A stretch of DNA of 64,000 bases, taken from Halochromatium roseum (lineage in GTDB: Bacteria > Pseudomonadota > Gammaproteobacteria > Chromatiales > Chromatiaceae). Made by a program: the position numbers and the translations under genes. Positions within the stretch are counted from its first letter, which is position 1, and each line of letters opens with the position of its first letter. Where the stretch lies: assembly GCF_016653315.1 (NCBI RefSeq), contig NZ_NHSH01000070.1:1-64000 (forward strand), in the 5' to 3' direction. A model generated the notes under the pieces. That model worked only from the letters and a program-made list of their open reading frames with translations. It ran no database searches and was not told the origin of the DNA. This document shows, one piece after another, positions 193 to 17,346 of this stretch.

Positions 193-1908
193 GGGTGCAA
201 CCTGCCGAGCGCGCCGACCGGCGCAGGAGCGGCTCCACTGCGAGGGTGGACAGGCCGGGGGAGAGTGAGGCCCTTGGGCAAGGCGGTGCTCACAGGCGTA
301 GGCTGATCAGGGCAACCATCCCGTTGAACCGCCACCGCCTGAGAGACCGCCTTGCTCAGTCTACACACGTCCACGCTCACCAGCCACGGCCCTCAACTGA
401 TGCGAGCAGATGCAAGCACTCGTCAGGTTCGTTGAAACATCACTCGAGGACACACGGGCAACCCATGAGGTTGAAGAAGGCTTGTGGCGCGGGGTCTTGG
501 CCTTGGGCCACAGCCTGCTGGGGGCCTTCTTTGCCGCCAGTGGTGACGGGGATGTCGGTGAGCAGCACCGCACCGCATGGAGCAGGGACGCGTGCTCAAG
601 CGCTTGGCACCGCGCCCGCGCCCCTATCGCAGCGTGTTTGGTGACTTTCAGCTCGAGCGCTTCGTCTATGGCCAACGCGAAGGCCAAGCCATCGAGCTCA
701 TTCCCTTGGATGCGCGGTTGCAGCTGCCCGAGACCTGCACCTCCTTTCTGTTGCAGTCCTGGAACGAACGGCTGATGATCGAGCAGCCCTACGCACAAAC
801 CAACGACCTGCTCGAGCGCGTACTCGAGGTGCGCCAATCGGTGCAGACACTGGAACGTCAGCAGGCCGGGTTGAGCACCTCCGTGGACGCCTTTTGGGCG
901 CGGCGGCCAGCGCCTGAGCCGGCTTCAGCCAACACCCTCGTGGTCAACACCGTCGATGTCAAAGGGGTGGCGATGCGCGCCAGCGAGACCCGGGGGGTGG
1001 GTGGCAAGAAGAAGATGGCCCTGCTGGGCAGCGTCTACAGCATCGCCCCGTTCGTGCGCACCCCGGACGCGGTACTCGAGGCGCTGTTTGCTGAGAAGAC
1101 CTCCGTGCTCAAGCCAGCGCCAACCGCGCGTCCGAAGCCGTTGCATAAAGCCGTGCGTGCGGGCCTGATCCGCGATGCCGAGGACCACAGCGGCGAGCAA
1201 GCGCGGATGATCTTCGACTGGATGCAGTATCAAAATCGGCTGCGCAATCCCGATGGCGCGCGGCACACAGTGGTGCTCATCGATGGGCAGTGCTCGCTGT
1301 GGCAGGCTGCCGCCACCCATCTGCCGGGCGAACATGTCACCGAGATCCTCGATGTCATTCATGTCGCCGGTTATCTCTGGGAGGCCGCCGAGGTCCTTGA
1401 GGACACGCCGGAACAGTGCCGTGCCTGGGTCAAAACCGCCCTGGGTCAGGTGCTCCATGGTCAGGTCGCTGACGTCCTCACCGACCTCGATGCACAGCGC
1501 AAGCCCCGCCGGGGCCGGGCGCGCAAACGCCTCGACAGCGTGTACACCTACCTCGATGTCAACCGCCAGCGCATGGCCTACGATGCCTACCTGGAGGCCG
1601 GCTTCCCGATCGCCGCCGGTGTCATCGAAGGCGCCTGTCGGCATCTGGTCAAGGATCGGCATGGAGCGCTCCGGCATGCGCTGGACCGTCCGGGTGCCCA
1701 CGCCATGCTGCAGCTGCGCAGCGTCGCGCTCAGCGAGCTGTGGGAGCCGTTTATGGACTTTCGCATCCACAGCGAGCTGTCGCGCCTTTATGGCGATCAG
1801 GCCGCTAACGATGATCAGGCCTTGCCGATCGCTACTTGAGGGCATGGGGCAACTCGGTGGCAAAACCGCGAATCAATCACTTGGCGGCGCGCTCGGCAGG
1901 TTGCACCC
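193..1908 (+). mobile_element. ISKra4-type insertion sequence, degenerate
   Basis: The element is bounded by a perfect 24-bp inverted repeat: 193-216 (begins gggtgcaacctgccgagc) and its exact reverse complement at 1885-1908. Outside these, both ends carry a less regular extension containing CCTTAG or CTAAGG, so the true ends may lie about 10 bp further out. It encloses a transposase of the ISKra4 family that is broken by indels. No target-site duplication could be confirmed by eye. The right end lies about 20 bp from the stop codon of the following hydrolase gene, so the insertion may have trimmed that gene. Confidence 0.8.
410..1839 (+). pseudogene. ISKra4 family transposase, frameshifted
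   Basis: The long frame from 577 (420 codons) carries family hallmarks: GGKKKMALLGSVYS, a likely catalytic Asp in VVLIDGQ, DVIHVAGYLWEAAEVL, and the acidic motif GVIEGACRHLVKDR. The N-terminal part (VRFVETSLEDTRATHEVEEG onward) lies in another frame from 410 to about 570, so a frameshift separates the two. A second lesion is a compensated pair: an extra base near 1660 and a missing base near 1690. Between them the main frame reads RHGALRHALDR, while the neighbouring frame reads the expected MERSGMRWT motif. Family members are usually one continuous protein of roughly 450-480 residues, so this copy is probably inactive. Confidence 0.75.
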
Positions 1909-1926
1909 TACCTTAGTAGGTTTCCA

Positions 1927-2886
1927 TTACTTTGCGCATCCTCCAGCGGCTTTAATCGTGACATGCCCAGTTAGATTATGAAATGCCGGTTCTCGTGCTG
2001 GGTGGATCTCTACTCTAACTCGGTGGCCAGCATCTTCCAAGGCGTTTGCAAAGGCCAATTGCAGGCTGAACGGCGTGATGCTGTCCTCGGGATTACCCAG
2101 GATGATCACCAAGCGCTCTGGATCATGGGTGATGTCCTGAAGATGGTCCAAAGGATCGTAGGGATCGGCCAACCCCGTTGTGTCGAAGCCTGTTCGCGGC
2201 CGTCGCCCCTTGGCCTTGCGGAGCATCTCGGCCCGTTTGAGCAGGTCATAGGCCCCGGAGCTCAAGGTTGCGCAGCGGATGTCGGTTCGGCCTAGCGTGA
2301 GCAAGGCTGCAGCCGCTGTGGCTCCACCGCTGTGGCCCGAAAGGACGAACTGCTGGATGCCGTAGCGCTCCTTGATCCGGTCTAATGCGGCGTTCAGTGA
2401 GTGGTATTCCTTGGGCTGGCGTCGCTGATGGTGATCGCCCGAGGAGCCGTAGGTGCCGGGACGGGCGACCACCACCACTGGAATCCCCGCTCTGCGGGTT
2501 TGTCGCGCCGCGTAGCCTTCTTGCGAGGATCGGGTGTTGTTGCGGATTTGATCCACTGGTTTGCGCATGACCCGATCTCGATCTCCGTAGAATTGCGCAA
2601 TGACGACGGGCGCGTTATGGATGTCATCGCCGGGAAAGTAACGGATGCATTCCTTTCCTTCTTCGTGTTCTACCCAGACAAATGTTGGTTCATCTGGGCA
2701 CAGGTTTTTTTCCGCCGGCCTGTTCCAGTCCAGCCATGTTTTTTCCTGCTCGGTGGCTAGGGCTGGCTGCTGGCTCAGAACAACAACGCTAAAGAGCAGC
2801 AGAAGTGCCAACGGATCAGCGAAGAAGTGTCTATAGCGTTTCAGCATCAGGGATTGTCGATGGCCGTAAACGAAAAGAGCAATCAT
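1927..2886 (-). CDS. Exported alpha/beta hydrolase
   Basis: The protein is up to 319 residues, with a hydrophobic N-terminal segment (ADPLALLLLFSVVVLSQQPALA) that looks like a signal peptide, so it probably acts in the periplasm or outside the cell. An alpha/beta-hydrolase core is indicated by the nucleophile elbow GHSGG (Ser about residue 186), a likely acidic residue in NPEDSIT and a C-terminal His in NLTGH. The substrate is unknown; an esterase, lipase or peptidase role is possible. The start may be the second Met (base 2847). Either start overlaps the end of the giant upstream gene, suggesting translational coupling. The C-terminus stops just before the insertion sequence and may be slightly truncated. 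Confidence 0.75.
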   Translation of the reverse strand: MIALFVYGHRQSLMLKRYRHFFADPLALLLLFSVVVLSQQPALATEQEKTWLDWNRPAEKNLCPDEPTFVWVEHEEGKECIRYFPGDDIHNAPVVIAQFYGDRDRVMRKPVDQIRNNTRSSQEGYAARQTRRAGIPVVVVARPGTYGSSGDHHQRRQPKEYHSLNAALDRIKERYGIQQFVLSGHSGGATAAAALLTLGRTDIRCATLSSGAYDLLKRAEMLRKAKGRRPRTGFDTTGLADPYDPLDHLQDITHDPERLVIILGNPEDSITPFSLQLAFANALEDAGHRVRVEIHPAREPAFHNLTGHVTIKAAGGCAK

Positions 2887-5800
2887 TGGTTCTGTACGCT
2901 AAAAACAAGGACTCGATCAAGACCCCAGCAACGTTTCGGGCCTGCCCAACCGTTGGGAAATGATGCAAGCTGAGATCGGGGTTGGTGTTGACCTCAATGA
3001 TGCTCCAGGCTTGTTTGTCAGGCGGCAGGGAGATGTCCTCGGCAACCAGGTCGATGCCGACATGAGGCGGATCGAACACAGCCTGTCGGGCCTTGACAGC
3101 GAGGGGCGCGAAGTCGGGATGGACGCTCTCGGTGACGTCCTGGCTGGTTCCGCCAACGCCGGTGTTGGCGACGGTGTCCAGTTGCACGGTGTGCCCAGCG
3201 TCAGGAATGGCGTTTGGATTCAGCCCTTGCGCCTGTAACTGGCGAAGTACGGAAGGGCCGAGAACAATCGGACATTGGGCTAGTCCGGGGTCTCCTTCGC
3301 GCTGGAGGTTTTGGGCGTCGACCAAGGCTTGAATGCTCCGTTGGCCGTCGCCGGTGATGTGAGCGGGAAGAATGTGCGCGGCGGCGACCAAGGTATTGCC
3401 GATGATAAACAGGCGATACAGCGCACCCGGTGCGTACTCCTCGACCAGGATCATCGTCGCCTTGGTCTGGACCGCGAGCGTCCAGGCGTCGTCGAAATGC
3501 TCGCGCTGGGTGACATTGGTGGTCACGCCTCGCCCCCAGGAGCCGGATTGGGGTTTGATCACGGCGGGAACGCTCTGGCGTTGAAGATAGGCCCAAGCGG
3601 GTGCTTGTTGGTCTGCACTGAAGGCCTGGCCATTGGGCGTCGGTAAGCCAGCCGCGCGGAGCAATTGCTTCGCCCATGATTTGTGCGTGTTGGTAGCCCG
3701 CCGCGCGACGATGCGAGTGCCAGGCGACATCGTCCGGTAAAACAGGCATTGGCCATCCGCATCAGCAATGCGAGTCAGCTTCGAGGCGAGTCGCTCTGCT
3801 TTTAATCCTCGGGATCGGGCGGCATGACACAATAATTGGACTTCCAGGCGACTGTCCAGGGCGAATGCCGTGTCCGCTGCTGGAGTGAACGCAGGGGCGG
3901 GCCGGAGGCAGGGCGGTTGGTCCGAAGGCGTTTGTTGCCGAGCCGGATCAAGGGCATAGTCGAGCACCTCGTTGGACAGATCCAAGGCCAGTCCCGAGGC
4001 TGGGAAAGCGAGATCGGCGATGGCAGGCTTGCCGTCGATATCCAGAATCACCGCACTCTGGCTGGCAAGGTCGCGTTCGGGCTCCTCACAGAGCAGGGAC
4101 ACGCAAGCCAAGTGCAACCCTGGAAAACAGTGCACGGCACGTTCGGCCAATGTCAGCAGCGAGGCATGGATGGTTTCGGTCAAGGCAACCGTGTCGCTGC
4201 CGTTGGCGATGCTGGCTACATGGGACAGTAGGATGCGGGTTCCTGGATCGGGAACGGCCTCCATGGCCCATCCTGATTGCGCGAGACCCTCTTGCTGGAC
4301 CAGCGGCCATCGGCTCAGCCAGGGGTTGCTGGCTCTGCGTTTAGTGCGCGCCTGGATCAAGCCCGCAACCGTATCGCGACCATTGCCAGTCAGCGTGATC
4401 GGCATACATTCATAAGCCCCAACTGCGCGTCCGCCCAGGACCATGACTCGGACATGGCGTGCCCGATCGGTGTGTTCGGCCTGGAAACGGATAAAGAATG
4501 CTTGGGCGGCGTGCAGGTTGCCAAAGACGGTCGCTTCCTGGGTTGGCAGTCCGTTCAGGTCGAGTAATTGCTTGCTGCGGCGCTTGTCTGCGGTGATGGT
4601 CGCAGCCAGGACGGAGTGATCCGGTGAGTTGCGTCGAAAGATCGCGCTTCGTCCATGCTGGGCGATCTCGACGTACCCGGCGGGATGTCGGGTGATCTTC
4701 AGGTCGCGACGGGCCGCAGCCTGCAACAGCAGGTCTTCGGTGAAAGCGAACACGGGAGCAGGCGCCCGGGATGGCGGCGGCGCGGACCGAGAGAGGGGGG
4801 CTGGGATGCCTGAGGCTGCCTGTTCGGCATCTCCTGGTTCAGGTTGGGTCAGCAGGTGCGGGATGGCTCCAAAATCCGACGCTCGGCGAGAGCCCTTGAT
4901 CAGGATCAGGTCACCGTCCTGGGCCAGGTCATGAAGATGGCGCACCACCTCTTGGGCCTGCGAGCAGTGCGGCCCCAAGCGATCGGCGGGCAGCTGCGCG
5001 CGCAGAAAGCGCATCTCCGGGCCATGCGTGATCACCTGCTCCACGCCGGTCGCGAGCAGCGGCTCGGCCAGCTCCTCATGCAGGGATTGGGCCTGTTCGC
5101 CGAGATGGACGATACGCCCGAGCACGGCGATTTTCCGTCCTTGCGCGGGGGGCGTCGCCTCCGCCAACACCTGGAAGGCGTTGAGCATGGAGAGGACCGT
5201 GGCGTTGTAGCTGTCGTCAATAAGGGTCACGAGGCCATGGCGGAGCCTGACGCTGTGATGCCGAAGACAGCCTGCGTTGGGCTCAAAATGCCGCAACGCC
5301 TCAGCGGCGTCTGAAAGATCCTTGTCCATCGCCAGGATCACGGCCAGGGCCGCCAAGGCATTGCGGACCATGCCCGGACTGGACAGGGGCAGGGTAAAGC
5401 GAAGGCGGCCTTGCGGGGTGTCCAGCGTGATGCGATGTTCAGTCATTCGGCCCGAGCGGCGGCTGTCCACGGCGCGTATCCGCAGCTGCGCGTTGCGACT
5501 TTCACCAACGACGAGGAGTTGCTGGGCATGCTGGGCCGCCTTGCCTCGGATCTCGTCGAAATAGGGCAAGTGCTCGCCGATCACGGCCACGGCGGGTCCG
5601 GTCAGACCATCAAAGATGTGCGACTTCCAGTGTGCCGTATCGGCGACCGAGGACACGCGCCGATCGGTCTGGGACAGGCCGATTTCCGTGATCACGGAGA
5701 TGGTTGGACGCATCAGGCGGGTGACCGGTCCACGCTTCATCCAGAGCGCGCTTTGGGCGACCTCGACGATGGCGGCCCTGTGCTCGGGATGCAGGCTGGC

Positions 5801-8800
5801 GAGGAGGGCGAGGGCATCGATACGGGTGTTGTAGTTGCCCTGGGTGGCTAGGACCGGATCGCCGAGGGTCGGGGTCGGTTCGGACAGCGCGGTCAGCATC
5901 TGTTGAAGCATGGCCACAGTGGTGGACTTACCCGCCGTGCCGGTGATGGCCACGAGAGGACCCGCATAGCGTTGTCGGGCTGCCAGGCCGAGTTCCATCA
6001 AGGCTTGGATCGGATCGGCCACCTGCAAGAGCGGGAAGTCTGCGGGCAATCCGGCCACGGGTCGGGAGACCATGGCGCCGGCGCAGTGCGGGGCCAGTGT
6101 CGGGAGTGCGTCGTGGCGATCGTAATCCCGTTTGGGGCGGGTGGATTGGGCATGGCGCTGGCGTTGCGCCAGATCGTGCGCGACGAAGAAAAACGGCTTG
6201 GGCAGTCGATCGATGTAGGAGCGTTGGTAGGCGGCGGAGCGCACGAACCAGCCCTCTGGCGGTGGCACCTGCCAGGTGCCGCCGGTCACCGCTTGGAGCT
6301 GGGCCGCGGTCCAGGTCTGCCCGGGCTGGCATTCTTGGATCGAGGCCGGAAAGTCGCTGCGGTAAGAAGGTGTTGTGGTGGAAGCGGGGGCTGATTCCAG
6401 CTCGGGAATGGCCATCCGCAGCACTGGACCGAGGTAGGGCGAAACGTCGGGATGCTGCCTGGACAGAATGCCAACCTCGATGCGCAGGTCCACATTGAGC
6501 AACTGCGACATCCGAGGCGCGCGCAAACCATAGTAGTCCCGGTAAATGACACCGGGCTGCCAGCGGCTGGTTGGAGCGAGCCAGTCGCAGGGATCATGGT
6601 CCATGCGTTTGCCCCAGACCGGGATGGTGCTGGGTTGGACCGGCACCCCGCGAATGTTCAGGCGGATGTCTTCCCGGATCGGAGCCTCGCAGCTCCAGAA
6701 GCTTTCCACCCAGAGCATCTGCCGGCGGGTGATCGTCTGCGGATCGACGCGCACTCCGAGCAGCGTCAGTGGCCCGAGACGAACCGGCGCGATCCGGGCG
6801 GCTTGTGGAACCTGGTCCACAGCGCCTGCCGCCGTGGTTGACGTCATGGACGGGTCCAGAACGCTCAGGTCATAACGAGTATAGGGCGCTTGCGGTAACC
6901 GGGTCTTGATGACGCGGCGAGGTGGCGAAAGGGTGATGGCCCCGGCATTCGTCGCGTCCGATGAGACCGGCGTGCCGAACGCCGAACAAAGCGCCGTGAA
7001 CTGATCGATGGTCTTGCGGGCGTTGCGTCCGGAGCGCTGGACCGAGTAGCCAAAGCCGATACCGATCGGAATGAAGCGGATCTGTTCGACGCCGTGGGGG
7101 CTGATGTCGAGGGCAAAGAGACCGCCGCGGTGCAGGGTGTTGCGCACGGAATCAAACAGCAGGTTGCCGGCATCGTAGAGAATCGGGCGCTGTCGATAGA
7201 GCTCGATTCCCTGCAGCCAATGGGCACTGCAGCCCAGCACCGCATCGGCGCCAGCGTCGATGATGGCTCGCGCCAAAGCCCGAGTGCGCGGCTCAGGCGT
7301 GTCGGCATGATTGCGGCCCCAGTGGACGCCCACCAGAACCACGGAGGCTTGGTCGCGAATCGCGCTGATGCGAGGGGCCAGGGTCGCTCGCCAGAGGTCC
7401 GGGAGGTCTGGGTCGAGATGCGCGCTTCCCGGACTGTCCTGGGTGGCTGCGAACTGGGGCTCCGTGGCGTCGAGGCTGAACAAGGCGACGTTCAGGTTCC
7501 CGGCCCGGCGCAACACCGGTTGCAGGGCTGCCTCCAGATGGGGGCCGGTGCCGGCGTGTCCGATGCCGACAGCGTCCAGCCAGCGGCCTTGTTCCAGTAA
7601 GGCCTCGGGGCCGTAATCCCCGCTGTGATTGTTGGCTGTCGCGACGATATCGATATGTGCGCCGGTCAAGATCCGTAGCATCTCCGGTCGAGCCCGGTAG
7701 TAATAGGGTGCTTTTTTGCTTCCCTTGAAGCCCTGCTCTCCGGCGGTGGCCACCACGCATTCCAGATTGGCGATGCGCAGGTCGGCGGTGCGCAAGGCGG
7801 GAATGCCACCCAGCACGTTTTCCGCGCCAATGCTGGCGGTCCGATAATGCTGTCTTCGGCCTAGATTGATATCTCCGGCCCAGATCACCGTGGCGCGATC
7901 GGTTCGGTAGGCCGGATCTGGGCTGCTCAAGGCGGCGTGACTGGGCTTGGTCGTTGGCGAGACCTGCTGGCGGGCTGAGGTTGCAGAGCTGGATTGCGAG
8001 AGGTTTTCTCCGTCCCACAGCCTGTAATGAGCGGACTGGGCCGCTTGGGTCATCTTGGCCAAGGAGGCGGGCGCTAAATCGGTCGGGTAAACAATCAGGT
8101 TGTAGAGCGGATGTTCCACCGGTTGCCAGACCCGCAGCCAGTGGCGCCGCGCCATGAAATTGACCGCGTTGACATCTCCTTGAATGAAAGCCTTCTCCAG
8201 CGTGCGCAGAAAAAGCAGATGGCTTGGCGCGCAGTTGGCGAACGCCTCCTGGTAGCCAACCTTCCATAAAAACAACACACCGTTCATACGCACCGCGAAT
8301 TGGCCAGCGATATCCTGGCCATCGGCCTCTAAAAAGTTCCAGTCCATCCAACCATCGCGAGCGAATTGCTTGGCAGCGGCGAGATATAACGGTGGATCGC
8401 CCGGCCGAGCCTGGATCGAGCTATTGCGCTCGCCCTTCCAGCCACTGTGTTCGACGGCCATGAACCGGGCGAAGTTATCCTCAATACTCCGCGAATCCTC
8501 TCGGCAGCGATAGGTCACCAGCGTGCGTTCCTTGAGCCGGCGTTCTTGGCGAAACAGCTCACGCCGGAACTTACTGCCCAAAGTGCTCAGAAATGCGCTG
8601 AAATCATTGGGCAGCGCGATGCGATGCTCCAGACCGGATTGCCGAAACATCAGGCTGAGCCTGTCCGGATGCTGCTGAAAAGCGGCGAAGATGGGTGATG
8701 TCGAGGGTACCTGACGCCAGCGCAGAATCGGTGGACCCGAGCTCATCGCGGATAAATGACGAAAGCAGGCTTGGAGAATCGCCGCTTGATTGGAGTGCGC

Positions 8801-9151
8801 TAGCAGATCAACGCGAACGGTATGGTACTCATCGACAGGGGCGCGGAAGTGGTGCTGAGCCCTGCCAAGTCCATGCGCCCGAAATCCCCCGACTAATGGC
8901 AAGACGCCGACCAGTCTTTGACCCTGGTAGGCAAGCAGGCAGCACATCTGCTCCGTGGGGTCGAGTTTGTGGCTGTAGAAGGCCTTTAGCCAGCCGTAAC
9001 TTTGGGTGGGGTAGGCGACAGGGCATTCATGGATCAAGCGATTCCATGCGCTGGCATGCGCATCCAGTTCAAGCGGATGGGTGGCTGCGATGACCTGGAG
9101 TTCCGTGTTGGGCGATATGGATATCTCATCGCAACGCTTCATGGCCGTCAC
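2831..9151 (-). CDS. Giant fusion: FemAB/GNAT, CapA, MurF-like ligase, two ATP-grasp domains
   Basis: This 2106-residue protein shows five recognisable modules. Residues about 20-385 resemble the BioF2/FemAB-like GNAT acyltransferases (SKFRRELFRQERRL; FAVRMNGVLFLWKVGY). Residues about 418-760 are a CapA-type metallophosphoesterase-like domain (GDINLGR near 424, NLECV, ANNHSGDYG, VGVHWG). A beta-rich linker of unknown fold follows. Residues about 1040-1440 are MurF-like: P-loop GTAGKSTT near 1070, carbamylation-type Lys in TAHWKSHIF, DDSYNA near 1311, KGSRRASDFG near 1418. Residues about 1490-1735 are an ATP-grasp-like domain that lacks its nucleotide-binding segment. Residues about 1790-2090 are an intact-looking CphA-like ATP-grasp (VIKPQSGSWGRGV near 1864, IIEVNTNPD). 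There is no signal peptide. Family knowledge suggests ATP-dependent amide ligation; the product is unknown. It lies downstream of a DUF2156-SET gene. Confidence 0.85.
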   Translation of the reverse strand: MTAMKRCDEISISPNTELQVIAATHPLELDAHASAWNRLIHECPVAYPTQSYGWLKAFYSHKLDPTEQMCCLLAYQGQRLVGVLPLVGGFRAHGLGRAQHHFRAPVDEYHTVRVDLLAHSNQAAILQACFRHLSAMSSGPPILRWRQVPSTSPIFAAFQQHPDRLSLMFRQSGLEHRIALPNDFSAFLSTLGSKFRRELFRQERRLKERTLVTYRCREDSRSIEDNFARFMAVEHSGWKGERNSSIQARPGDPPLYLAAAKQFARDGWMDWNFLEADGQDIAGQFAVRMNGVLFLWKVGYQEAFANCAPSHLLFLRTLEKAFIQGDVNAVNFMARRHWLRVWQPVEHPLYNLIVYPTDLAPASLAKMTQAAQSAHYRLWDGENLSQSSSATSARQQVSPTTKPSHAALSSPDPAYRTDRATVIWAGDINLGRRQHYRTASIGAENVLGGIPALRTADLRIANLECVVATAGEQGFKGSKKAPYYYRARPEMLRILTGAHIDIVATANNHSGDYGPEALLEQGRWLDAVGIGHAGTGPHLEAALQPVLRRAGNLNVALFSLDATEPQFAATQDSPGSAHLDPDLPDLWRATLAPRISAIRDQASVVLVGVHWGRNHADTPEPRTRALARAIIDAGADAVLGCSAHWLQGIELYRQRPILYDAGNLLFDSVRNTLHRGGLFALDISPHGVEQIRFIPIGIGFGYSVQRSGRNARKTIDQFTALCSAFGTPVSSDATNAGAITLSPPRRVIKTRLPQAPYTRYDLSVLDPSMTSTTAAGAVDQVPQAARIAPVRLGPLTLLGVRVDPQTITRRQMLWVESFWSCEAPIREDIRLNIRGVPVQPSTIPVWGKRMDHDPCDWLAPTSRWQPGVIYRDYYGLRAPRMSQLLNVDLRIEVGILSRQHPDVSPYLGPVLRMAIPELESAPASTTTPSYRSDFPASIQECQPGQTWTAAQLQAVTGGTWQVPPPEGWFVRSAAYQRSYIDRLPKPFFFVAHDLAQRQRHAQSTRPKRDYDRHDALPTLAPHCAGAMVSRPVAGLPADFPLLQVADPIQALMELGLAARQRYAGPLVAITGTAGKSTTVAMLQQMLTALSEPTPTLGDPVLATQGNYNTRIDALALLASLHPEHRAAIVEVAQSALWMKRGPVTRLMRPTISVITEIGLSQTDRRVSSVADTAHWKSHIFDGLTGPAVAVIGEHLPYFDEIRGKAAQHAQQLLVVGESRNAQLRIRAVDSRRSGRMTEHRITLDTPQGRLRFTLPLSSPGMVRNALAALAVILAMDKDLSDAAEALRHFEPNAGCLRHHSVRLRHGLVTLIDDSYNATVLSMLNAFQVLAEATPPAQGRKIAVLGRIVHLGEQAQSLHEELAEPLLATGVEQVITHGPEMRFLRAQLPADRLGPHCSQAQEVVRHLHDLAQDGDLILIKGSRRASDFGAIPHLLTQPEPGDAEQAASGIPAPLSRSAPPPSRAPAPVFAFTEDLLLQAAARRDLKITRHPAGYVEIAQHGRSAIFRRNSPDHSVLAATITADKRRSKQLLDLNGLPTQEATVFGNLHAAQAFFIRFQAEHTDRARHVRVMVLGGRAVGAYECMPITLTGNGRDTVAGLIQARTKRRASNPWLSRWPLVQQEGLAQSGWAMEAVPDPGTRILLSHVASIANGSDTVALTETIHASLLTLAERAVHCFPGLHLACVSLLCEEPERDLASQSAVILDIDGKPAIADLAFPASGLALDLSNEVLDYALDPARQQTPSDQPPCLRPAPAFTPAADTAFALDSRLEVQLLCHAARSRGLKAERLASKLTRIADADGQCLFYRTMSPGTRIVARRATNTHKSWAKQLLRAAGLPTPNGQAFSADQQAPAWAYLQRQSVPAVIKPQSGSWGRGVTTNVTQREHFDDAWTLAVQTKATMILVEEYAPGALYRLFIIGNTLVAAAHILPAHITGDGQRSIQALVDAQNLQREGDPGLAQCPIVLGPSVLRQLQAQGLNPNAIPDAGHTVQLDTVANTGVGGTSQDVTESVHPDFAPLAVKARQAVFDPPHVGIDLVAEDISLPPDKQAWSIIEVNTNPDLSLHHFPTVGQARNVAGVLIESLFLAYRTNDCSFRLRPSTIPDAETL

Positions 9152-9236
9152 TCAATCAGGATTGTCGATGCATGCGTCTTTCTCGTTCTGCTGGTCTTGT
9201 GCTTGGCAGATGCGCAGGCTTGGGTATTGATTGTTA

Positions 9237-10724
9237 TTATATTCGGATAATCCCTCTGCAGTTAGCCGATTTGCAGCAGCAAGCAAATTGCGTATAAGTT
9301 TTCTTCATGTTTTTCTCTAGGTCTGCAGTCAACTCTTCGCCAGCTTTAACATTTCGTTGCGCAACGTAGTCGCCTTTCTTATTGCAATACAGGTTCGGAT
9401 CGCAGCTGTGATTGATAAAGTAGCAGATCCCTAGACTGTTGATGTCTTTCGGGGCATGGAGTCCTTTTCTGTCTTTGTAGCAGTACTGGATAAGTTTGTA
9501 ACGCGTTGCCTCATCTAATGTTTCGAACTCAGCCCAGGTAATCAATCGGGTTTCATCAAAGTATGCGTAAGGGGCGACGATTTCGTCTACCACAAAGTCG
9601 ACTAAGGCGAAAAGTCCCACTTGGCCTGGTACCATCGTTGATGGACGCAGTTCGTAACGTGCTTGGCTGTAGCGGCTTACCGGATGACGAGCCTCATTGG
9701 TGTCTGGGCTTAGGCTTCGGGTTTCCGACTCTCCAGTGTTATTGGATAGGGAGGTTGTTGCCCGAGATGCCAGCCGAGTAACCTGCTTACCCGTGTAAGC
9801 GATATGAAATCCAGTGGGTCGGAAACGTTGTTTCATTTCTCTCAGTCCGTGATCTCCTCCATCTGATCCGTCATTAACGATTTCGTAGTCCTGCATGGTT
9901 GAAATAAAATGCTGGCGTATAAAATAGCCAAGATCTGCGTTACTCGGATCAGCGATGGATAATAACAAGCATCCGACGTTTGGTCTTATTTCTCCCCCAA
10001 AGGTCAATGCGCGGACCTGTTGATTGACAAGATAGACAAAGCCATTCAAGTCACGGTTGTCGAGTTGCGGAGCAAAATGAAAAGCGTTTAGGGCATAGCG
10101 CCGCTGAAAAAACACAGAGTCCGATTGTTTTTCTTTTTGCCTCTCCCAGTCGTTAAGAAGCTGACGGCATTGTGCAGCATATTCCGGGCCGTAGGGTTGG
10201 ATGTCGATCTCCATCCGCCTGCTGGCGAGACTGATTTTGCGTCGTAGATTCTGAAACTGGGGGCCAGCTAGGCTGGAAAGTGCTTTTGGCGAAAAGAGAT
10301 ACTGCGGGTTACGCTTGGTGAGACGAAAGAGGTTTAATTGCCGCAGCTGCGGCATGTCTTGTTCGTCAATGAAATAGATCCTGGAGTTGTCCGATTGATT
10401 GAAATCAGTGCTGCGTTCCAAAGCACCAAGCAATGCCGATTCCTGATAGGGAAATGGCGGGAACGCAAGGTCCAGACGGTTCTTCCTTGCATATTGATGT
10501 CTGAACACACAGAGAGAGCCGTTGCGTTCTTCCCAAAGATAGCGAGCGCTTTGGGAGCCAAGACGGACAAAAAGCAGATAGGGGAAATAGAAGTTCCAGC
10601 CCCGCTGTTGCCCTGCGATAACTGCCTGCTTGAACCTTGGTAAATCGGTCAATTGCAGGGGGCGCAGGTCGCTGAGCAAGGGGTTGCTCATGAGCAGAGG
10701 GTTGCTCGACTGTGCTGAGAGCAC
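9237..10724 (-). CDS. DUF2156 (LPG-synthase C-like) and SET domain fusion
   Basis: The 495-residue protein has two parts. Residues about 15-315 resemble the DUF2156 / phosphatidylglycerol-lysyltransferase C-terminal fold, a GNAT-like aminoacyl or acyl transferase (MPQLRQLNLFRLTKRNPQYLFS; IVNDGSDGGDHGLREMKQRF). Residues about 355-495 are a SET methyltransferase domain with NHSCDPN at 438-444, GEELT, and a cysteine-rich tail CCCKSANCRG like a post-SET zinc site. The Tyr expected in the GEELTxDY motif is Leu here (ELTADL), so methyltransferase activity is uncertain. It lies 85 bp upstream of the giant gene on the same strand and is probably co-transcribed. Its base composition appears lower in GC than the giant gene. 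Confidence 0.75.
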   Translation of the reverse strand: MLSAQSSNPLLMSNPLLSDLRPLQLTDLPRFKQAVIAGQQRGWNFYFPYLLFVRLGSQSARYLWEERNGSLCVFRHQYARKNRLDLAFPPFPYQESALLGALERSTDFNQSDNSRIYFIDEQDMPQLRQLNLFRLTKRNPQYLFSPKALSSLAGPQFQNLRRKISLASRRMEIDIQPYGPEYAAQCRQLLNDWERQKEKQSDSVFFQRRYALNAFHFAPQLDNRDLNGFVYLVNQQVRALTFGGEIRPNVGCLLLSIADPSNADLGYFIRQHFISTMQDYEIVNDGSDGGDHGLREMKQRFRPTGFHIAYTGKQVTRLASRATTSLSNNTGESETRSLSPDTNEARHPVSRYSQARYELRPSTMVPGQVGLFALVDFVVDEIVAPYAYFDETRLITWAEFETLDEATRYKLIQYCYKDRKGLHAPKDINSLGICYFINHSCDPNLYCNKKGDYVAQRNVKAGEELTADLEKNMKKTYTQFACCCKSANCRGIIRI

Positions 10725-10886
10725 GGAGATCGGTGGTTGATGAATGGCATACAGAAGAACGGCGTCGCTATCTGCGTATGGCCTTGGCCTGCGGCCGATC
10801 TGAAGGCGTTAGTCCATCAACCCCTTTCTGTTGCTGTGCCCGTGCTGGATCGGCTTTGAAGAACGACTCAGCACGTGGTTTTACCG
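10725..10886. other. Intergenic spacer, nothing recognised
   Basis: This spacer lies upstream of the DUF2156-SET gene and after the stop of the PEP-CTERM gene, both read leftwards. I see no convincing gene, tRNA or strong terminator hairpin. Short open frames on the plus strand have no recognisable content. It may hold the promoter of the leftward biosynthetic block. Confidence 0.35.
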
Positions 10887-11939
10887 CTAGCGGCTATTCC
10901 GGCTGACTTTGCGAACCAAAAACAGACCGCTTATGAGTAGCACCAGCGTCCCGGGGGCAGGCACATCAACGGGGTCGGGATCTCCAATAAGCGTTTGGCC
11001 ACCGTTTACAGGCTGAAACAACAGGACTTGGCTTCTGTCTAGCGGGTCGCTGGATGCCATTCGTTGAAAAGTAGTATTAAGTAACTCTTCTCCATCCCGG
11101 CTTAATCCTGTAACTGAAAAATGGCCAGTGTCGAGGTCCATATCGCCGTCATAGAGGCTTTCCCAGATTCCGACCTGAATTGCGCCGCTTACTAACCAGT
11201 TAGCGGGGTTCAGCCAATTTCGGTCACCAAAATTATAAGTGCCATTTTGAACCCAGCCATCATCTTCTTCAACCCAGTAGTCAGTTTCAGCTAAAACATC
11301 ATTAAGCGCACCAAGAAAATCCAAAACGTTGTTGATGTTACCAGTGGCAGTAATTCCTGGTATTGTTGTTTCGCGAAGCTGCCACCCCTGCCTCCACCCC
11401 CGCCAGACCCTCTCAGTTTCTGTTTCGTCTTGTGTAATTTGAGTTGTCGTAGTGGGGTCGCCAGCTGCGTCATCATCAAATGCGTATACGTTGTATTCAA
11501 CGAAACCTACCGTCTCGAGATCATTGAAAATATCGAGGCAGTACAAGATGACCTGATCTTGGCTACGATAGAGCGTCGTAATGTCGAAATCTTCGTTTCC
11601 AGTAGATTGTGCTTTGCCGTCGAAAGCGCCCGCGCTTATTCCATTTTGACGCCAGTCGTTTTTATTTCTCCATTTATCAGGGTCATAATCATAATCAAAA
11701 CGAAGGTTAACGTTGTCGTAACCAATCAAGAAAGGATCTCTCGAATTTTCAGAGAAACTGAATTCAACACTCCCAACCTGTTGCATATTATCGATAGTCA
11801 ACGTCGGAGTGGCCAGTGTCGCTGTTGCGCTCAAAGCGAGTGCGAGCGTTGCGGTTCCCAATGCAACTTTCGAAATGCGGCTATTATGGGTTTTGCGGGC
11901 CTGGTCAGCCTTTTTATCATCAAGAAGTAAGTGGGCCAT
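10887..11939 (-). CDS. PEP-CTERM sorting-signal protein
   Basis: The 350-residue protein has a late N-terminal signal peptide (VALGTATLALALSATATLA, after about 24 polar residues). It ends in a typical PEP-CTERM tail: a VPAPGTL motif, a hydrophobic stretch (LVLLISGLFLV) and a basic end (RKVSRNSR). Such tails are known substrates of exosortase, which removes the tail and delivers proteins to the surface or to exopolysaccharide. The body is acidic, rich in Asp, Asn and Trp, and has no family I can name. No exosortase gene is seen in the window, so it must lie elsewhere. An AGAGAG Shine-Dalgarno-like sequence precedes the ATG. Low GC relative to the core genes suggests an accessory gene. Confidence 0.8.
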   Translation of the reverse strand: MAHLLLDDKKADQARKTHNSRISKVALGTATLALALSATATLATPTLTIDNMQQVGSVEFSFSENSRDPFLIGYDNVNLRFDYDYDPDKWRNKNDWRQNGISAGAFDGKAQSTGNEDFDITTLYRSQDQVILYCLDIFNDLETVGFVEYNVYAFDDDAAGDPTTTTQITQDETETERVWRGWRQGWQLRETTIPGITATGNINNVLDFLGALNDVLAETDYWVEEDDGWVQNGTYNFGDRNWLNPANWLVSGAIQVGIWESLYDGDMDLDTGHFSVTGLSRDGEELLNTTFQRMASSDPLDRSQVLLFQPVNGGQTLIGDPDPVDVPAPGTLVLLISGLFLVRKVSRNSR

Positions 11940-12262
11940 CGTTGTTACTCTCTAGGCGGACTCTAATTGATTGAAATGTAGTGTATTTTTTGTTTTTTGT
12001 CAATGCAAATCGCGCAGTCCCAGGGTTTTTAGGTCAACGCTCGTCGTTGAACAAGTGTTGAGACACCCTTGTCATTCTGAGGGAGTGCATGCAAGCTACC
12101 CGAGTGCATGCAAGACTAGTGCCATTTCCTAGAATAATGGCCAAGGGGATGCGCGATCGGTCCTTAGCGTGCTCAGAATGTCCATCCGTGATCCGATTAA
12201 AGCTGTCAGTGGCAGTGATTGTCACCTGACGCTGACACATCCTGCCAGCCCGGTATCCTGCC
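11940..12262. promoter_or_regulatory. Divergent intergenic region with 13-bp direct repeat
   Basis: This AT-rich region separates the leftward PEP-CTERM gene from the rightward gene starting at 12263. It holds an exact 13-bp direct repeat gagtgcatgcaag at 12083-12095 and 12102-12114, so the copies start 19 bp apart. Each copy contains the palindrome TGCATGCA. That layout suits a regulator binding two sites about two helical turns apart, but no regulator gene is nearby. I see no credible coding frame. Confidence 0.4.
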
Positions 12263-14236
12263 ATGTCTACGTCTCTCGGACTCCCTGTGGAAGCGGAAGC
12301 TCGAGCCATAGCCGCAGTGTCGACCGACTTGCCACCGCCCGTCTATCCCCTCGGAGTGCTGGAAGTGCCGGAGCGTCGTCTACCCAGCGATCATCTGACG
12401 CCTGGTGATACCACCTTGCTCGCGATGCTGCGTGCCGCGCTTCAGGCTGCTGCCCCGGATTGGGAGGCTCTTCGTGTGGCGGTCGCAGGTGCGCAGGGAT
12501 TTCGCCAACGCTGCGACCGGGTGGTGCTGATTCTCTACCAAGCCTCTGAACAGCGTCTGATGGTCGTGCGCCGTGGCGGTGGAGGGTTAGGTGAGGCCCT
12601 GGAGCAGGCGTTAAAGGCGTTGAAACAGCATCCGCGCATCGGCGCCTTTGCCGTCGCTGACCAGGAGCGTTGCCGAATCCAGCTGGACATCATCGCTCAG
12701 CCCCCTGTGCCCTGTGATATTCGTGAAATCGGTATGTCTAGAAGGGGTGCCCTGCACTTCGAGGTCGGTCTTGATGGCCTGGTGCTGGAGCGCGATGGCA
12801 AGCGTATCTACGTCCTACCGGGCGATGCCTATGTGCATTCCTACATGGGCATGAAGCAGCTGCGACGTCGCTTGACGCGGCTGTACGGCAACGATGTACT
12901 GGACGCCTACTCGTTCGCTCGCTTCACCAGCGAAAGCTACATCAGCTTTGGTGAGCGCTGGGTGCGGTTGTGGCGGGGTCATCCGCTGAACGGACCGCTC
13001 ACCCAGGCGCGGTTGGTGCAGGCAACAGAGCTGGCAGTCGACCACATCCTGAGAAATCAACAAGCCGATGGCCGCTTCCTCTACTACTACAATGCAGCGC
13101 TGGACAGCCGCCGCGACCACGAGCACCCCAACCGCGACCCCGACAGGAACCCGTTTTACAACATCGTTCGCCACAGCGGCGGTATCCTGACGGGGCTCTA
13201 CCACGCGCGCCTGACTGGGAGCGATCGGGCGCTTGCGCCGATGCGGCGTGCCATCGACTACCTACTCGCCCAGGCAAGGACCTATGAGACGCATGACGGC
13301 AGGGAGGCGCATTACATCTACTACAATCGCAAGGGCAAGCTGGGCGGTAGCGGTGTCGGACTCTATGCGCTGGCCGAACATCGCCGGCTGACGGGCGACC
13401 GTCGCTACGACGAGGCGGCGCGGCGGCTCGCCAATCACATCGCTGAGCAGATCACAGACAGCGGCGAGTTTATCTACTACAAGGTCTACTTAGACAAGGA
13501 GGTCACCGAAGCCGACAACGGGAAATACTTTTCTTTCTATTATCCAGGCGAGGCGCTATGTGGCTTAGCGGGCTACTATCTGTACATCCTAGAGGACGAG
13601 GTCGAAAAGGCGCGTCTCCTGGCCGCTGTCCATCGCGCGCTGCGCTTCCTCATCGTGGAGCGACCGCGCACCCGCGCGAGCGAATACCGCGCCTTGCCCT
13701 CGGACGCCTGGCTGATGATGGCGATGATGGAGTTTTGGGACGAACCGGCCTTTCGTCGCGATCTCTACCGGGACTTCGTCTTTACCGATGCCGATGCGAT
13801 GGTGCGGCAGATGTATACGGTTGATGATGCGCCTTATCCGGACTACGCAGGCGCCTTCTTCTACGAATTCGGCGAGTATCCTTACGCCGATGGCGCCCGT
13901 GCTGAAGGGCTCATGGCCGCCTTCACCCTTGCGCACAAGGTGGGAGATAAGGCACGCATTGCGCTTTATGGCCGTGCGTTGAGATTGCTGGCTTGGGCGA
14001 CGATGCATTTGGTCAATACCCCAGAGTCGATCTATTTTGCCGCTAACCCAGACGTTGCGCTGGGCGGCATTCGTTTTAAGTATACGCGCCAGTGGTTTCG
14101 TATTGATACCATTCAGCATGTCTGTGCCTTTTATTTGAAAATGATGCTGGACGGCCGCGTTGCTGTATCGGATGGGACTACAGCGAGCAATGAGGAGCGT
14201 GCAACATGCATCTTCGCCGATGAGCGCTCTGCCTGA
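12263..14236 (+). CDS. Uncharacterised protein with AMMECR1-like N-terminus and alpha/alpha-barrel-like C-terminus
   Basis: The 657-residue protein has no signal peptide or membrane segment. The N-terminal 240 residues (DIIAQPPVP; FEVGLDGLVLERDGKRIYVLPGD) vaguely recall the layout of AMMECR1-type domains. The remainder is a series of helical repeats rich in aromatic residues (GRFLYYYNAALDS, GGILTGLYHAR, KGKLGGSGVGLYALAEHRRL, FYYPGEALCGLAGYYLY), as in six-hairpin glycosidases and epimerases of the alpha/alpha-toroid fold. The fold suggests sugar or polysaccharide chemistry; this is inference. The following kinase-like gene starts inside its last codons, so the two probably work together. Confidence 0.6.
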   Translation: MSTSLGLPVEAEARAIAAVSTDLPPPVYPLGVLEVPERRLPSDHLTPGDTTLLAMLRAALQAAAPDWEALRVAVAGAQGFRQRCDRVVLILYQASEQRLMVVRRGGGGLGEALEQALKALKQHPRIGAFAVADQERCRIQLDIIAQPPVPCDIREIGMSRRGALHFEVGLDGLVLERDGKRIYVLPGDAYVHSYMGMKQLRRRLTRLYGNDVLDAYSFARFTSESYISFGERWVRLWRGHPLNGPLTQARLVQATELAVDHILRNQQADGRFLYYYNAALDSRRDHEHPNRDPDRNPFYNIVRHSGGILTGLYHARLTGSDRALAPMRRAIDYLLAQARTYETHDGREAHYIYYNRKGKLGGSGVGLYALAEHRRLTGDRRYDEAARRLANHIAEQITDSGEFIYYKVYLDKEVTEADNGKYFSFYYPGEALCGLAGYYLYILEDEVEKARLLAAVHRALRFLIVERPRTRASEYRALPSDAWLMMAMMEFWDEPAFRRDLYRDFVFTDADAMVRQMYTVDDAPYPDYAGAFFYEFGEYPYADGARAEGLMAAFTLAHKVGDKARIALYGRALRLLAWATMHLVNTPESIYFAANPDVALGGIRFKYTRQWFRIDTIQHVCAFYLKMMLDGRVAVSDGTTASNEERATCIFADERSA

Positions 14237-15164
14237 CGGCTTTGGCGTCGCCTGGGATCGACTCGCTAGCCTTGGCTGGCGACCTGAGCAGATTGAGTGG
14301 GTTGAGCGCCCCTCGCAAGGGGAGCGCAATCAGGTCTATCTCTTGCGCCATGCCGGCGAATCGGCAGTGATCCGGCTGCCGCACGCAAGGCCGAAGGCGG
14401 CCGATAGGCTTGTGCGCGAGTTACACAACCTCAATGCGGCCGCTGCGGCCGGTGTCACGCCGGTGCCACTGCTCGCCGATCCGACGGATGGCTTGCTGTT
14501 ACTGCCCTATCTCCATGGAGAACACCCGAAACCAGGCATGGTCACGCCAGACGCTGCCGTTCGCATGGGTCGTTGTCTCCGAAGCCTGCACCGCGATACA
14601 GCCCCATTTCGCTCTGGAACCGATATCCTGCGCCGTATTCGCCGGCGTATGGCCGGCGTTGCTGCGGAGGCCGACGAGGCCCGTCGGCATGCCGCTGGTC
14701 TGCCGAGTGTTGTCAGGGCGATGGAGCCCGTGGTGGCAACGCTGCAACGCACGGCACCCTTGCCCGTTCCCTGCCATGGCGACCTGGTGCTCGGAAACAT
14801 CATCGACAATGGCGATCGGGTTCATTTCATCGACTGGGAAACCTCCACCGCCGGCGATCCACACCAGGATATTGCCAACCTGTGCTTGAGGGCACGCCTA
14901 GAGGGCGCGCCGCGTGCTGCACTTCTCGGAACCTGCTTTGACGGTGACCCGGAGCACGCTTTGCATCAGGCGACCGCAAGGGTCAGGCTATGGGAGCCGG
15001 CTTGCGCCCTCGACAAGGCCCTCGCGTACTGGAGCAATGGGGTCCGTTCGGGCGACGTCGATCCTCGGGTCGCAGGCTGGACGCAGCGTTGCTCAGCGCT
15101 GTTGGCTGCGCCGGGGATGCGTGCTGCTCATCTTGTTCTCGATCTTGAGACGGCAGAGCTGTGA
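14220..15164 (+). CDS. APH / choline-kinase-like phosphotransferase
   Basis: The ATG at 14220 is chosen because homology-like sequence starts there (MSALPDGFGVAWDRL); it overlaps the upstream stop by 17 bp. The roughly 314-residue protein has the aminoglycoside-phosphotransferase/choline-kinase fold: an N-lobe with NQVYLLRHAGESAVIRLP, the catalytic-loop motif PCHGDLVLGNII (HGD...N) and a metal-binding Asp in HFIDWE. Family members phosphorylate small alcohols, amino sugars or antibiotics; the substrate here is unknown. Linkage to the preceding barrel protein suggests a sugar or surface-polymer substrate rather than drug resistance. Confidence 0.75.
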   Translation: MSALPDGFGVAWDRLASLGWRPEQIEWVERPSQGERNQVYLLRHAGESAVIRLPHARPKAADRLVRELHNLNAAAAAGVTPVPLLADPTDGLLLLPYLHGEHPKPGMVTPDAAVRMGRCLRSLHRDTAPFRSGTDILRRIRRRMAGVAAEADEARRHAAGLPSVVRAMEPVVATLQRTAPLPVPCHGDLVLGNIIDNGDRVHFIDWETSTAGDPHQDIANLCLRARLEGAPRAALLGTCFDGDPEHALHQATARVRLWEPACALDKALAYWSNGVRSGDVDPRVAGWTQRCSALLAAPGMRAAHLVLDLETAEL

Positions 15165-16228
15165 ACGCGCCTGAGATACTGAAAATCCTCGAACCCGCTG
15201 ATCCTGAGAAGATGATAGTAAACCCGCCAGCGTTGTTGGACCGACGTCTCTCGGTCGCTCCGATGCTAGATTGGACTGATTCGCATTACCGTTCCTTTGC
15301 GCGATTGCTGTCACGGCACACACTACTCTACACCGAGATGGTGACGACCGGCGCGCTGATCCATGGTGATCGCGCGCGCTTCTTGCGCTATGACGCGTCC
15401 GAGCATCCGCTAGCACTGCAGCTCGGCGGCTCTGATCCAGCGGAGCTGGCGCGCTGTGCGCAAATGGGTGCCGACTGGGGCTACGACGAGATCAACCTCA
15501 ATGTCGGCTGCCCATCGGACCGGGTGCAGAACGGGCGCTTCGGCGCTTGCCTGATGGCCGAGCCCGCATTAGTGGCCGACTGCGTGGCGGCGATGAAGGC
15601 GGCGGTGGCGATCCCGGTCACGGTCAAGAGCCGCATCGGCATCGACGACCGCGATCGCTACGAGGAGCTGGTCGCCTTTACCCAAGCGCTGGAGCGGGCC
15701 GGCTGCGATGCGCTGATCGTGCATGCGCGCAAGGCTTGGCTCAAGGGCTTGAGTCCGCGCGAGAACCGCGAGGTGCCACCCTTGCGCTGGGATTGGGTGA
15801 TCAGGCTCAAGCAGGATTTTCCGACGTTGCCAATGGTGCTCAACGGCGGTGTGACGCGTCTCGAGCAGGTCGAATCGCTGCTCAGCGAGCAACAGGTCGA
15901 CGGCGTGATGATCGGCCGCGAGGCCTATCAGAACCCCTGGCTGCTGGCCGATGTGGATCGGCGCCTCTTTGGTGCCGCGAATCCGGTCGCGACGCCGCGG
16001 CAGGCGTTAGACGCCTTCATCCCCTATGTTGAACGGCAACTGGCGGAAGGCGTGCCGTTGGCATCGATGACTCGGCATCTACTCGGTCTCTTTCATGCGT
16101 GCCCAGGCGCCAAGGCCTGGCGGCGCACGCTGAGCGAGCTGGCGCATCGCCCTGGGGCTGGGATTGAGGTACTGAAGGCCGCCGCTGCTCGGGTCAGGCC
16201 GCGCGAGGCCCTGCTTGCGGATGCGTGA
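15161..16228 (+). CDS. dusA: tRNA-dihydrouridine synthase A
   Basis: This FMN-dependent enzyme reduces specific uridines in the D-loop of tRNA. The TIM-barrel start RRLSVAPMLDWTD, the catalytic Cys in NVGCPSDRVQNG (about residue 117), VTVKSRIGIDD, the HARKAWLKGLSPRENR loop and MVLNGGV all fit DusA rather than DusB or DusC. A GTG at 15161 overlaps the preceding TGA (GTGA), implying coupling; an ATG at 15212 is an alternative. The length (355 codons) is slightly above typical because of the N-terminal extension. Confidence 0.92.
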   Translation: MNAPEILKILEPADPEKMIVNPPALLDRRLSVAPMLDWTDSHYRSFARLLSRHTLLYTEMVTTGALIHGDRARFLRYDASEHPLALQLGGSDPAELARCAQMGADWGYDEINLNVGCPSDRVQNGRFGACLMAEPALVADCVAAMKAAVAIPVTVKSRIGIDDRDRYEELVAFTQALERAGCDALIVHARKAWLKGLSPRENREVPPLRWDWVIRLKQDFPTLPMVLNGGVTRLEQVESLLSEQQVDGVMIGREAYQNPWLLADVDRRLFGAANPVATPRQALDAFIPYVERQLAEGVPLASMTRHLLGLFHACPGAKAWRRTLSELAHRPGAGIEVLKAAAARVRPREALLADA

Positions 16229-16321
16229 TGCCCTGATTCAGTCCGCTGGAGTGACGCGCATCCGTTCTCGTCTGCTGGCAGGAGGGCGGCACAATGCACC
16301 GGCTGGCTTGGTTCGGGCCTG

Positions 16322-17227: not shown

Positions 17228-17346
17228 GCGGTGATCGGTAGTGGGCGATTCTCGTGCCCCTCCACCGGTGACGCCCCTTGTGCGATCCTGCAACCGAGCG
17301 ACGATCCAGAGGCCGAGCACTGGCCAGTGACGAGAGGAGCACAGCG

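Follow-up and report, generated by a model that had tools for sequence, protein, structure and literature searches.

The closest described systems each share some of the features of the protein reported here. MslH, the C-terminal tryptophan epimerase of a lasso peptide (PDB 8GQ9/8ITG), has a calcineurin fold, coordinates its metal through Glu44, Asn87, His259 and His261 and carries the dyads His88/Asp91 and His295/Asp11; most of these positions match metal-site residues of the phosphodiesterase YmdB, whose second metal MslH is unable to hold, partly for want of YmdB Asn40 (PMC10406935). In the polyglutamate synthases PgsBCA and CapBCA, a CapA-family protein is paired with a Mur-type amide ligase. 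For B. subtilis polyglutamate, a D/L ratio of 75/25 was found with pgsBCA and of 5/95 with pgsBC alone, an effect for which the authors suggest a link of PgsA with a racemase or a conformational change, not epimerisation (PMC6029982). The cyanophycin synthetases CphA1 and CphA2 hold an ATP-grasp domain and a Mur ligase in one chain; the order of CphA1 is N-G-M, with the ATP-grasp before the Mur domain, and TeCphA1 uses the residues Lys261, His267, Asp431 and Glu450, His267 being linked to acyl-phosphate stabilisation (PMC9427784). Finally, amide-ligase peptide systems combine GNAT, Mur and ATP-grasp genes without nonribosomal peptide synthetase (NRPS) modules, and the part of that survey available to us makes no mention of a CapA-MurF fusion (Aravind, de Souza and Iyer 2010, PMC2922099). 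Here, we analysed a stretch of 64,000 nucleotides from Halochromatium roseum (contig NZ_NHSH01000070.1, positions 1 to 64,000; hereafter the window), in which one gene on the minus strand (2831..9151) encodes a fused protein of 2106 residues. Judged by its sequence, this protein resembles parts of MurF, CphA and MslH, yet scores below the membership thresholds of each. Its best explanation is a dedicated, soluble peptide-assembly enzyme working without NRPS modules; we tentatively read it, with chances a little short of even, as an amide-ligase/epimerase machine dedicated to a peptide-like compound that carries an inverted residue.

The open reading frame (ORF) opens with GTG, an ATG following at codon 4, and runs through 2106 codons with no internal stop, so that the single chain of the original prediction stands. 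That prediction counted five modules. We find six, in the order GNAT, CapA, beta-sandwich, MurF-like ligase, ATP-grasp 1 and ATP-grasp 2, the beta-sandwich at about residues 781-915 having gone unlisted. The similarities to CapA, Mur ligases and ATP-grasp enzymes that had been predicted were all recovered by domain searches, the last of them below the Pfam cut-offs. A relative from Lamprobacter modestohalophilus (L001) comprises 2264 residues in identical module order and matches residues 1-2103, with 71% in the best segment. Among 55 genomes searched, our own included, a full-length relative occurred in one further genome of the same genus (G002), which we take to be that of Lamprobacter; the exact module order is thus known to us from two genomes of one genus. 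We further collected 65 loci (L001-L065) by means of peptide patterns from the fused protein, with genes called by a codon-bias ORF caller instead of curated annotation. In 58 of these loci, representing at least 15 named genera by record titles, the CapA, beta-sandwich and Mur modules lay in one called gene. Together with the full-length Lamprobacter relative, this count rules out an assembly join of separate genes, an error that had been named as one possible refutation. Apart from L001, the loci mostly matched residues 420-1436, with L003 and L052 matching the ATP-grasp part as well. Unlike the exact arrangement, the CapA-MurF core is older and has a scattered, if sparse, distribution.

The CapA module (residues 411-735; 6947..7921, minus strand), a predicted peptide epimerase, matched PGA_cap/CapA (PF09587) at residues 421-667 with 197.7 bits against a cut-off of 27 (E 3e-58). 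We modelled the core with AlphaFold 2 (AF2; residues 396-1450, 29 sequences, mean predicted local distance difference test score (pLDDT) 86), and the fold lists of this model were filled by Mur and CapA matches. MurF chains led its Foldseek list, with MslH appearing from rank 11; on the re-ranked list, MslH came out on top, with a Z score of 39, a root-mean-square deviation (rmsd) of 2.4-2.5 and 28% identity over 316-317 aligned residues. Among solved structures, too, the module is nearest to a peptide epimerase. Seven of the eight MslH active-site residues are kept, comprising E464, N508, H509, D512, H610 and H644 by alignment and D427 by motif only. On sequence and model, the nearest fold of the module is therefore that of a metal-dependent peptide epimerase, with which it shares the two His/Asp dyads and the Glu, Asn and His metal ligands. 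The CapA type had been predicted correctly; the accompanying label, metallophosphoesterase-like, is better replaced by epimerase-like. Membership in the MslH family itself is a different matter: the equivalog model NF038314 gave 80.4 bits against a curated cut-off of 700, and here CapA is fused to ligases.

By the same two lines of evidence, the chain contains a MurF-type ligase with P-loop and MurF motifs (about residues 942-1437; 4841..6328, minus strand). Pfam placed Mur_ligase_M at 1069-1271 (E 2e-22) and Mur_ligase_C at 1307-1422 (E 2e-14), and the NCBIfam model murF (TIGR01143) matched residues 1023-1423 with 207 bits, under its curated cut-off of 288.6. As predicted, the domain carries the P-loop GTAGKST (K1075), the DDSYNA motif at 1312 and a lysine, K1176 in HWKSHIF, which aligns with the lysine of MurF AKGEIF and which we take to be the carbamylated one. 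The fold match to MurF (Z 36 over 444 residues) starts at MurF residue 9; MurF and the MurE-MurF fusions rank among the closest known systems. In a tree of 51 Mur rows (IQ-TREE LG+C20, midpoint root), the 19 housekeeping MurF proteins sampled, a set without the MurF of our own genome, formed one clade (100/100) free of fused domains, and the Mur pair of the window and Lamprobacter fell inside a 23-row clade of fused domains (100/99). Recent capture of a housekeeping MurF is therefore unsupported for the Mur domain of the window, which falls outside the 19-row clade; our genome holds a separate MurF-like gene (G000:C65). Distinctness from housekeeping MurF points to a dedicated ligase. The comparison with PgsBCA and CapBCA brings out further differences: the Mur domain is MurF-like, the parts are joined in one chain, and the fused protein shows no hydrophobic segment by Kyte-Doolittle count. 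No PgsC-type Pfam match was found in the nine window proteins scanned (577-17227), the contig starting at window base 1 and its far side thus being unseen, and a PgsB model was not among the matches listed (25 of 30 for NCBIfam).

Between CapA and the ligase lies the unannotated beta-sandwich (about residues 781-915; 6407..6811, minus strand), delimited by AF2 secondary structure and a 14-row alignment and comprising seven strands in the model. It contains the conserved pattern WGxxMDHDPCDWxxPTxxWxPG, of which WG..MDHDPCDW..P...W is invariant across the 14 diverse rows (MDHDPCDW, residues 850-857; 6581..6604, minus strand), and it gave no Pfam match even at E 5. When 398 genomes sampled from the phylum were searched with a profile of this domain (alignment A3), 3 of them, our own included, gave a match, which marks the core as rare. 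As far as its sequences tell, the CapA-beta-MurF core is a rare, scattered bacterial family with no description found in the open-access literature. The same search, with subscription papers and preprints outside it, yielded no description of the fusion.

Toward the C-terminus, the second ATP-grasp module (residues 1774-2085; 2897..3832, minus strand) is CphA-like, as predicted. The cyanophycin synthetase models NF010623 and TIGR02068 matched it with 298.5 and 284.4 bits, under cut-offs of 877 and 850, and its closest PDB entries by sequence were cyanophycin synthetases. Alignment and spacing assigned K1866, W1872, D2034 and E2053 as equivalents of the four TeCphA1 residues; with the P-loop lysine and both metal carboxylates kept, sequence and model identify a CphA-type ATP-grasp domain that retains its ATP lysine. 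In contrast to CphA1, the Mur domain (942-1437) precedes this module and is MurF-like, and CapA, beta-sandwich and GNAT modules are added. The Pfam ATP-grasp model gave two weak matches, both within 1822-1926 and under cut-offs. The first ATP-grasp module (residues 1461-1765; 3857..4771, minus strand) is degenerate: Pfam gave no ATP-grasp match for these residues even at E 5. Its metal-binding Asp is Ser in the window and in Lamprobacter alike, its metal-binding Glu is Asp in the window and Glu in Lamprobacter, and it reads ILDIDGKP where ATP-grasp 2 has IIEVNTNP. Because Lamprobacter shares the serine, degeneration must have begun before the split. Of the two ATP-grasp domains expected, the second keeps these residues, and the first looks dead. 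At the other end of the chain, the predicted FemAB/BioF2-like acyltransferase (GNAT module, residues 1-395; 7967..9151, minus strand) matched Acetyltransf_6 at 193-333 (66.5 bits against a cut-off of 22, E 4e-18). It is 91% identical to the Lamprobacter module and occurs in 2 of 8 genomes of the genus, our own included (E 1e-20).

Gene neighbourhoods of the relatives suggest how the fusion arose. In Sphingobium (L052), the core gene and a double ATP-grasp gene overlap by 4 bp and a hydrolase gene follows 3 bp further on, an order collinear with the ORF of the window and its downstream alpha/beta hydrolase (1927..2886, minus strand; one N-terminal hydrophobic segment). The original proposal that parts of separate amide-ligation steps are fused in one chain is supported. 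Double ATP-grasp genes (family F17) stand beside the core in 11 loci, the scanned Microbulbifer member having an acylphosphatase domain. Counting the window, 36 of 66 neighbourhoods have a member of the hydrolase family; it is a conserved neighbour of the core, directly 3' of it in 33 of 65 loci, frequently with a 4 bp overlap, and following the ATP-grasp genes in L003 and L052. Among the same neighbourhoods, with family labels resting on one or few scanned members, HlyD was found in 20, an LssB-type ATP-binding cassette (ABC) protein in 20 and TolC in 18. We checked the exporter in 20 core-bearing genomes, about one per genus and chosen after the neighbourhoods had been seen, and in 14 control genomes. 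LssB-type exporters gave 17 matches over cut-off in 15 of the 20 core genomes and none in the 14 controls. Seven of the 17 lay inside the fetched loci (L002, L010, L011, L033, L034, L045 and L052), against about 0.07 expected for 17 matches when each locus covers about 20 kb of a genome of about 4.65 Mb, with placing by coordinates and not by contig names; an eighth match, in the L048 genome, appears to abut its locus.

In the amide-ligase/epimerase machine that we propose, the MurF-like domain would turn a carboxyl group into an acyl phosphate and then join it to an amino acid or short peptide. CapA might strip the alpha-proton from the residue newly joined at the C-terminus and re-protonate this residue on the opposite face, giving a D residue, to which the CphA-like ATP-grasp 2 would add a further one. 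The growing chain may be held by the beta-sandwich and the degenerate ATP-grasp 1, the N-terminal GNAT may acylate or aminoacylate it, and the downstream hydrolase could act on the exported product. Two observations argue weakly against a storage role: the N-terminus of the hydrolase is signal-like, and several lineages have type I exporters next to the core. More generally, CapA-beta-MurF proteins may be one-chain ligase/epimerases, an L residue being joined by the MurF-like ligase and inverted by CapA in each cycle, a possible but doubtful extension. The fused protein connects the CapA-like epimerase MslH, the near all-L polyglutamate that results from pgsA deletion and the physical joining of CapA with a Mur ligase in a family whose scattered members represent at least 15 named genera. 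We infer that PgsA itself may be the epimerase of polyglutamate synthesis. Should CapA be an epimerase here, the role of CapA/PgsA would become directly testable on a soluble protein, and should the extension hold, the proteins would define a class of D-residue peptides in Pseudomonadota not described before and make CapA/PgsA the maker of the D residues of polyglutamate. The invariant motif in an unannotated domain and the adjacent exporters in several lineages point to unexplored peptide products.

A number of observations weigh against this reading. With regard to CapA, the equivalent of MslH His261 is G612, and most of the MslH residue set recurs in a pair of stand-alone CapA proteins that relatives encode (L068, L069). 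Because the set is largely common to YmdB-type phosphodiesterases and stand-alone CapA proteins, it is no proof of epimerisation. Accordingly, CapA might be an ordinary metallophosphoesterase or a non-catalytic scaffold, leaving the protein a ligase only. The overlap with YmdB-type enzymes (PMC10406935) and the explanation of the PgsA effect by a racemase or conformational change (suggested in PMC6029982) would fit this alternative, which we nevertheless consider somewhat unlikely in view of the top-ranked MslH fold match. In addition, the module, like MslH, lacks counterparts of YmdB Asn40 and His175: C465 follows E464, and S642 stands two positions before H644. These assignments, drawn from the residue numbering in PMC10406935, speak against a two-metal phosphoesterase. 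The ligases of the proposed machine also show departures from their models. CphA His267 is replaced by W1872 in ATP-grasp 2, and about 47 residues with the ATP-binding lysine/glycine loop are missing from ATP-grasp 1 relative to Lamprobacter. The MurF histidine presumed to bind metal aligns with Gln (SQT), and the midpoint root puts 9 of the 32 fused Mur domains (5 first, 4 second domains) on the same side as MurF, in a tree with long branches among second Mur domains. The predicted template modelling score (pTM) of the core model is 0.56, leaving the relative placing of the domains unsure, and 7 of the 65 loci, some cut by contig or locus ends, have no CapA+beta+Mur gene call. As for the genomic context, a search of the Lamprobacter genome did not find the hydrolase, and neither that genome nor our own has an LssB-type exporter at E 1e-120, so that export via LssB is not general. 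The SET domain that ends the Lamprobacter protein is lost in the window, and an insertion sequence (193-1908; ISKra4-family transposase, perfect 24-nt inverted repeats at 193-216 and 1885-1908) ends 18 bp from the hydrolase gene. What remains of the SET domain is a 15-residue match to its start (2843..2887, minus strand), with no further SET match downstream in the window.

The loop loss, the SET remnant and the adjacent insertion sequence could be taken as signs of a decaying gene, the fusion drifting toward a pseudogene. The ratio of nonsynonymous to synonymous divergence (dN/dS) between window and Lamprobacter makes this very improbable, being 0.22 for GNAT, 0.21 for CapA, 0.23 for the beta-sandwich, 0.21 for Mur, 0.25 for ATP-grasp 1 and 0.17 for ATP-grasp 2; the frame is free of stops, and the shared serine dates the onset of degeneration in ATP-grasp 1 to before the split. 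Synonymous divergence (dS) was 0.29 for GNAT, 0.71 for CapA, 1.02 for the beta-sandwich, 0.91 for Mur, 1.40 for ATP-grasp 1 and 1.28 for ATP-grasp 2, the values above 1 (beta-sandwich and both ATP-grasps) being rough and adding to the reservations listed above. Neighbouring genes gave 0.12 (LPG_C-SET), 0.62 (PEP-CTERM-like), 0.17 (barrel gene), 0.47 (dusA) and 0.22 (EamA gene). Compared with its surroundings, the 3' part has diverged far more, which would fit either an exchange or faster evolution.

The relatives differ from the window in their N-terminal domain. A barrel is fused to the core, at its N-terminal side, in 56 of the 65 loci (55 before counting L058, in which a single 1083-aa gene holds the barrel, CapA and the start of the beta-sandwich) and is a separate gene in L034 and L063; no barrel above 100 bits was found in 7 loci, including some that are cut and L001, whose divergent barrel scores 55. 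The barrel model (L002, 22 sequences, pLDDT 91) shows an (alpha/alpha)6 fold matching cellobiose 2-epimerases with Z 30 over residues 196-550 (322 residues aligned, rmsd 2.8). This domain model has the AGE-superfamily fold, and a set of residues is invariant in its sequence alignment (A2). In the window, GNAT occupies the N-terminal place of the barrel, and a divergent homologue stands alone at 12263..14236 (plus strand), assigned by homology only: profile search gave E 2.7e-20 as single target and 2.5e-17 in the locus protein set, with a 55-bit main domain, and alignment A2 showed 24% identity to L002. The barrel raises an alternative in which the system tailors the carbohydrate or muropeptide part of a glycopeptide (a lipid-linked sugar or a UDP-sugar peptide); here the sugar would be the target of the barrel, and its peptide that of the MurF-like ligase. 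The likeness of the relatives' barrel to cellobiose 2-epimerases and GH76 enzymes (best Z 30) would suit such a role, as would an aldose 1-epimerase family that adjoins core and hydrolase in 20 Variovorax loci (one member scanned). The MurF match, beginning at residue 9, also covers the N-terminal domain, which in MurF binds the UDP-substrate. We regard this alternative as unlikely: the barrel lies outside the protein in the lineage of the window and also occurs away from the core (G449; a second copy in G002), the aldose 1-epimerase family is confined to Variovorax among the neighbourhoods, and the barrel fold is also found in non-sugar enzymes such as squalene cyclases. Under the amide-ligase/epimerase reading, an older barrel-CapA-beta-MurF core with ATP-grasp and hydrolase genes would have been rearranged in the lineage of the window, the ATP-grasp gene being joined to the 3' end and GNAT replacing the barrel, which would have been kept as the gene at 12263-14236.

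Directly upstream of the fused gene lie an LPG_synthase_C plus SET protein identified by Pfam (LPG_C-SET; 9237..10724, minus strand) and a possible PEP-CTERM-type secreted protein (10887..11939, minus strand). Their G+C contents are 0.49 and 0.48, compared with 0.58-0.66 across the modules. In this lineage, an operon of GNAT, LPG_C-SET and the PEP-CTERM-like protein could serve to tag a surface protein, decorating either a protein sorted by exosortase or its lipid anchor with amino acids or methyl groups. Both genomes with the fused protein have the two genes in this position and an exosortase, a search of 74 genomes (our own included) found LPG_C-SET in 2, which are exactly the two carriers, and in Lamprobacter the protein itself ends in a fused SET domain. 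We judge surface tagging decidedly unlikely, since the PEP-CTERM motif is below cut-off, the LPG_C-SET and PEP-CTERM families occur in only 2 of 66 neighbourhoods, and PEP-CTERM sorting takes place at the envelope, whereas the fused protein lacks a hydrophobic segment. A defence system was rejected as well, PADLOC giving no match for five proteins, and a scan of the operon revealed no excess of promoter- or terminator-like sites.

Several features of the wider family and of the window deserve brief mention. In Microbulbifer, ten loci (L002, L006, L007, L008, L021, L035, L036, L041, L047 and L051) form candidate peptide-product clusters with double ATP-grasp genes beside the core, and some of them add a 2OG-Fe(II) oxygenase (7 loci), a transglutaminase-like protein (family F20, labelled by position) or a type I exporter. 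In L009, L010, L038 and L004, the core measures about 2060-2390 aa and has two Mur domains in tandem. Ahead of the barrel, an initial stretch of about 190 residues (L002:8300-8869; window 12263-12830) forms a separate alpha/beta region, which in the window copy resembles, to our eye, the AMMECR1 fold. A further barrel homologue, at 4138-5220 of L109 (G002:C107), adjoins an ORF starting with DSDADG repeats. Elsewhere in the window, RecC-like and UvrD-type (probably RecB) genes stand in a row at 17278-25664.

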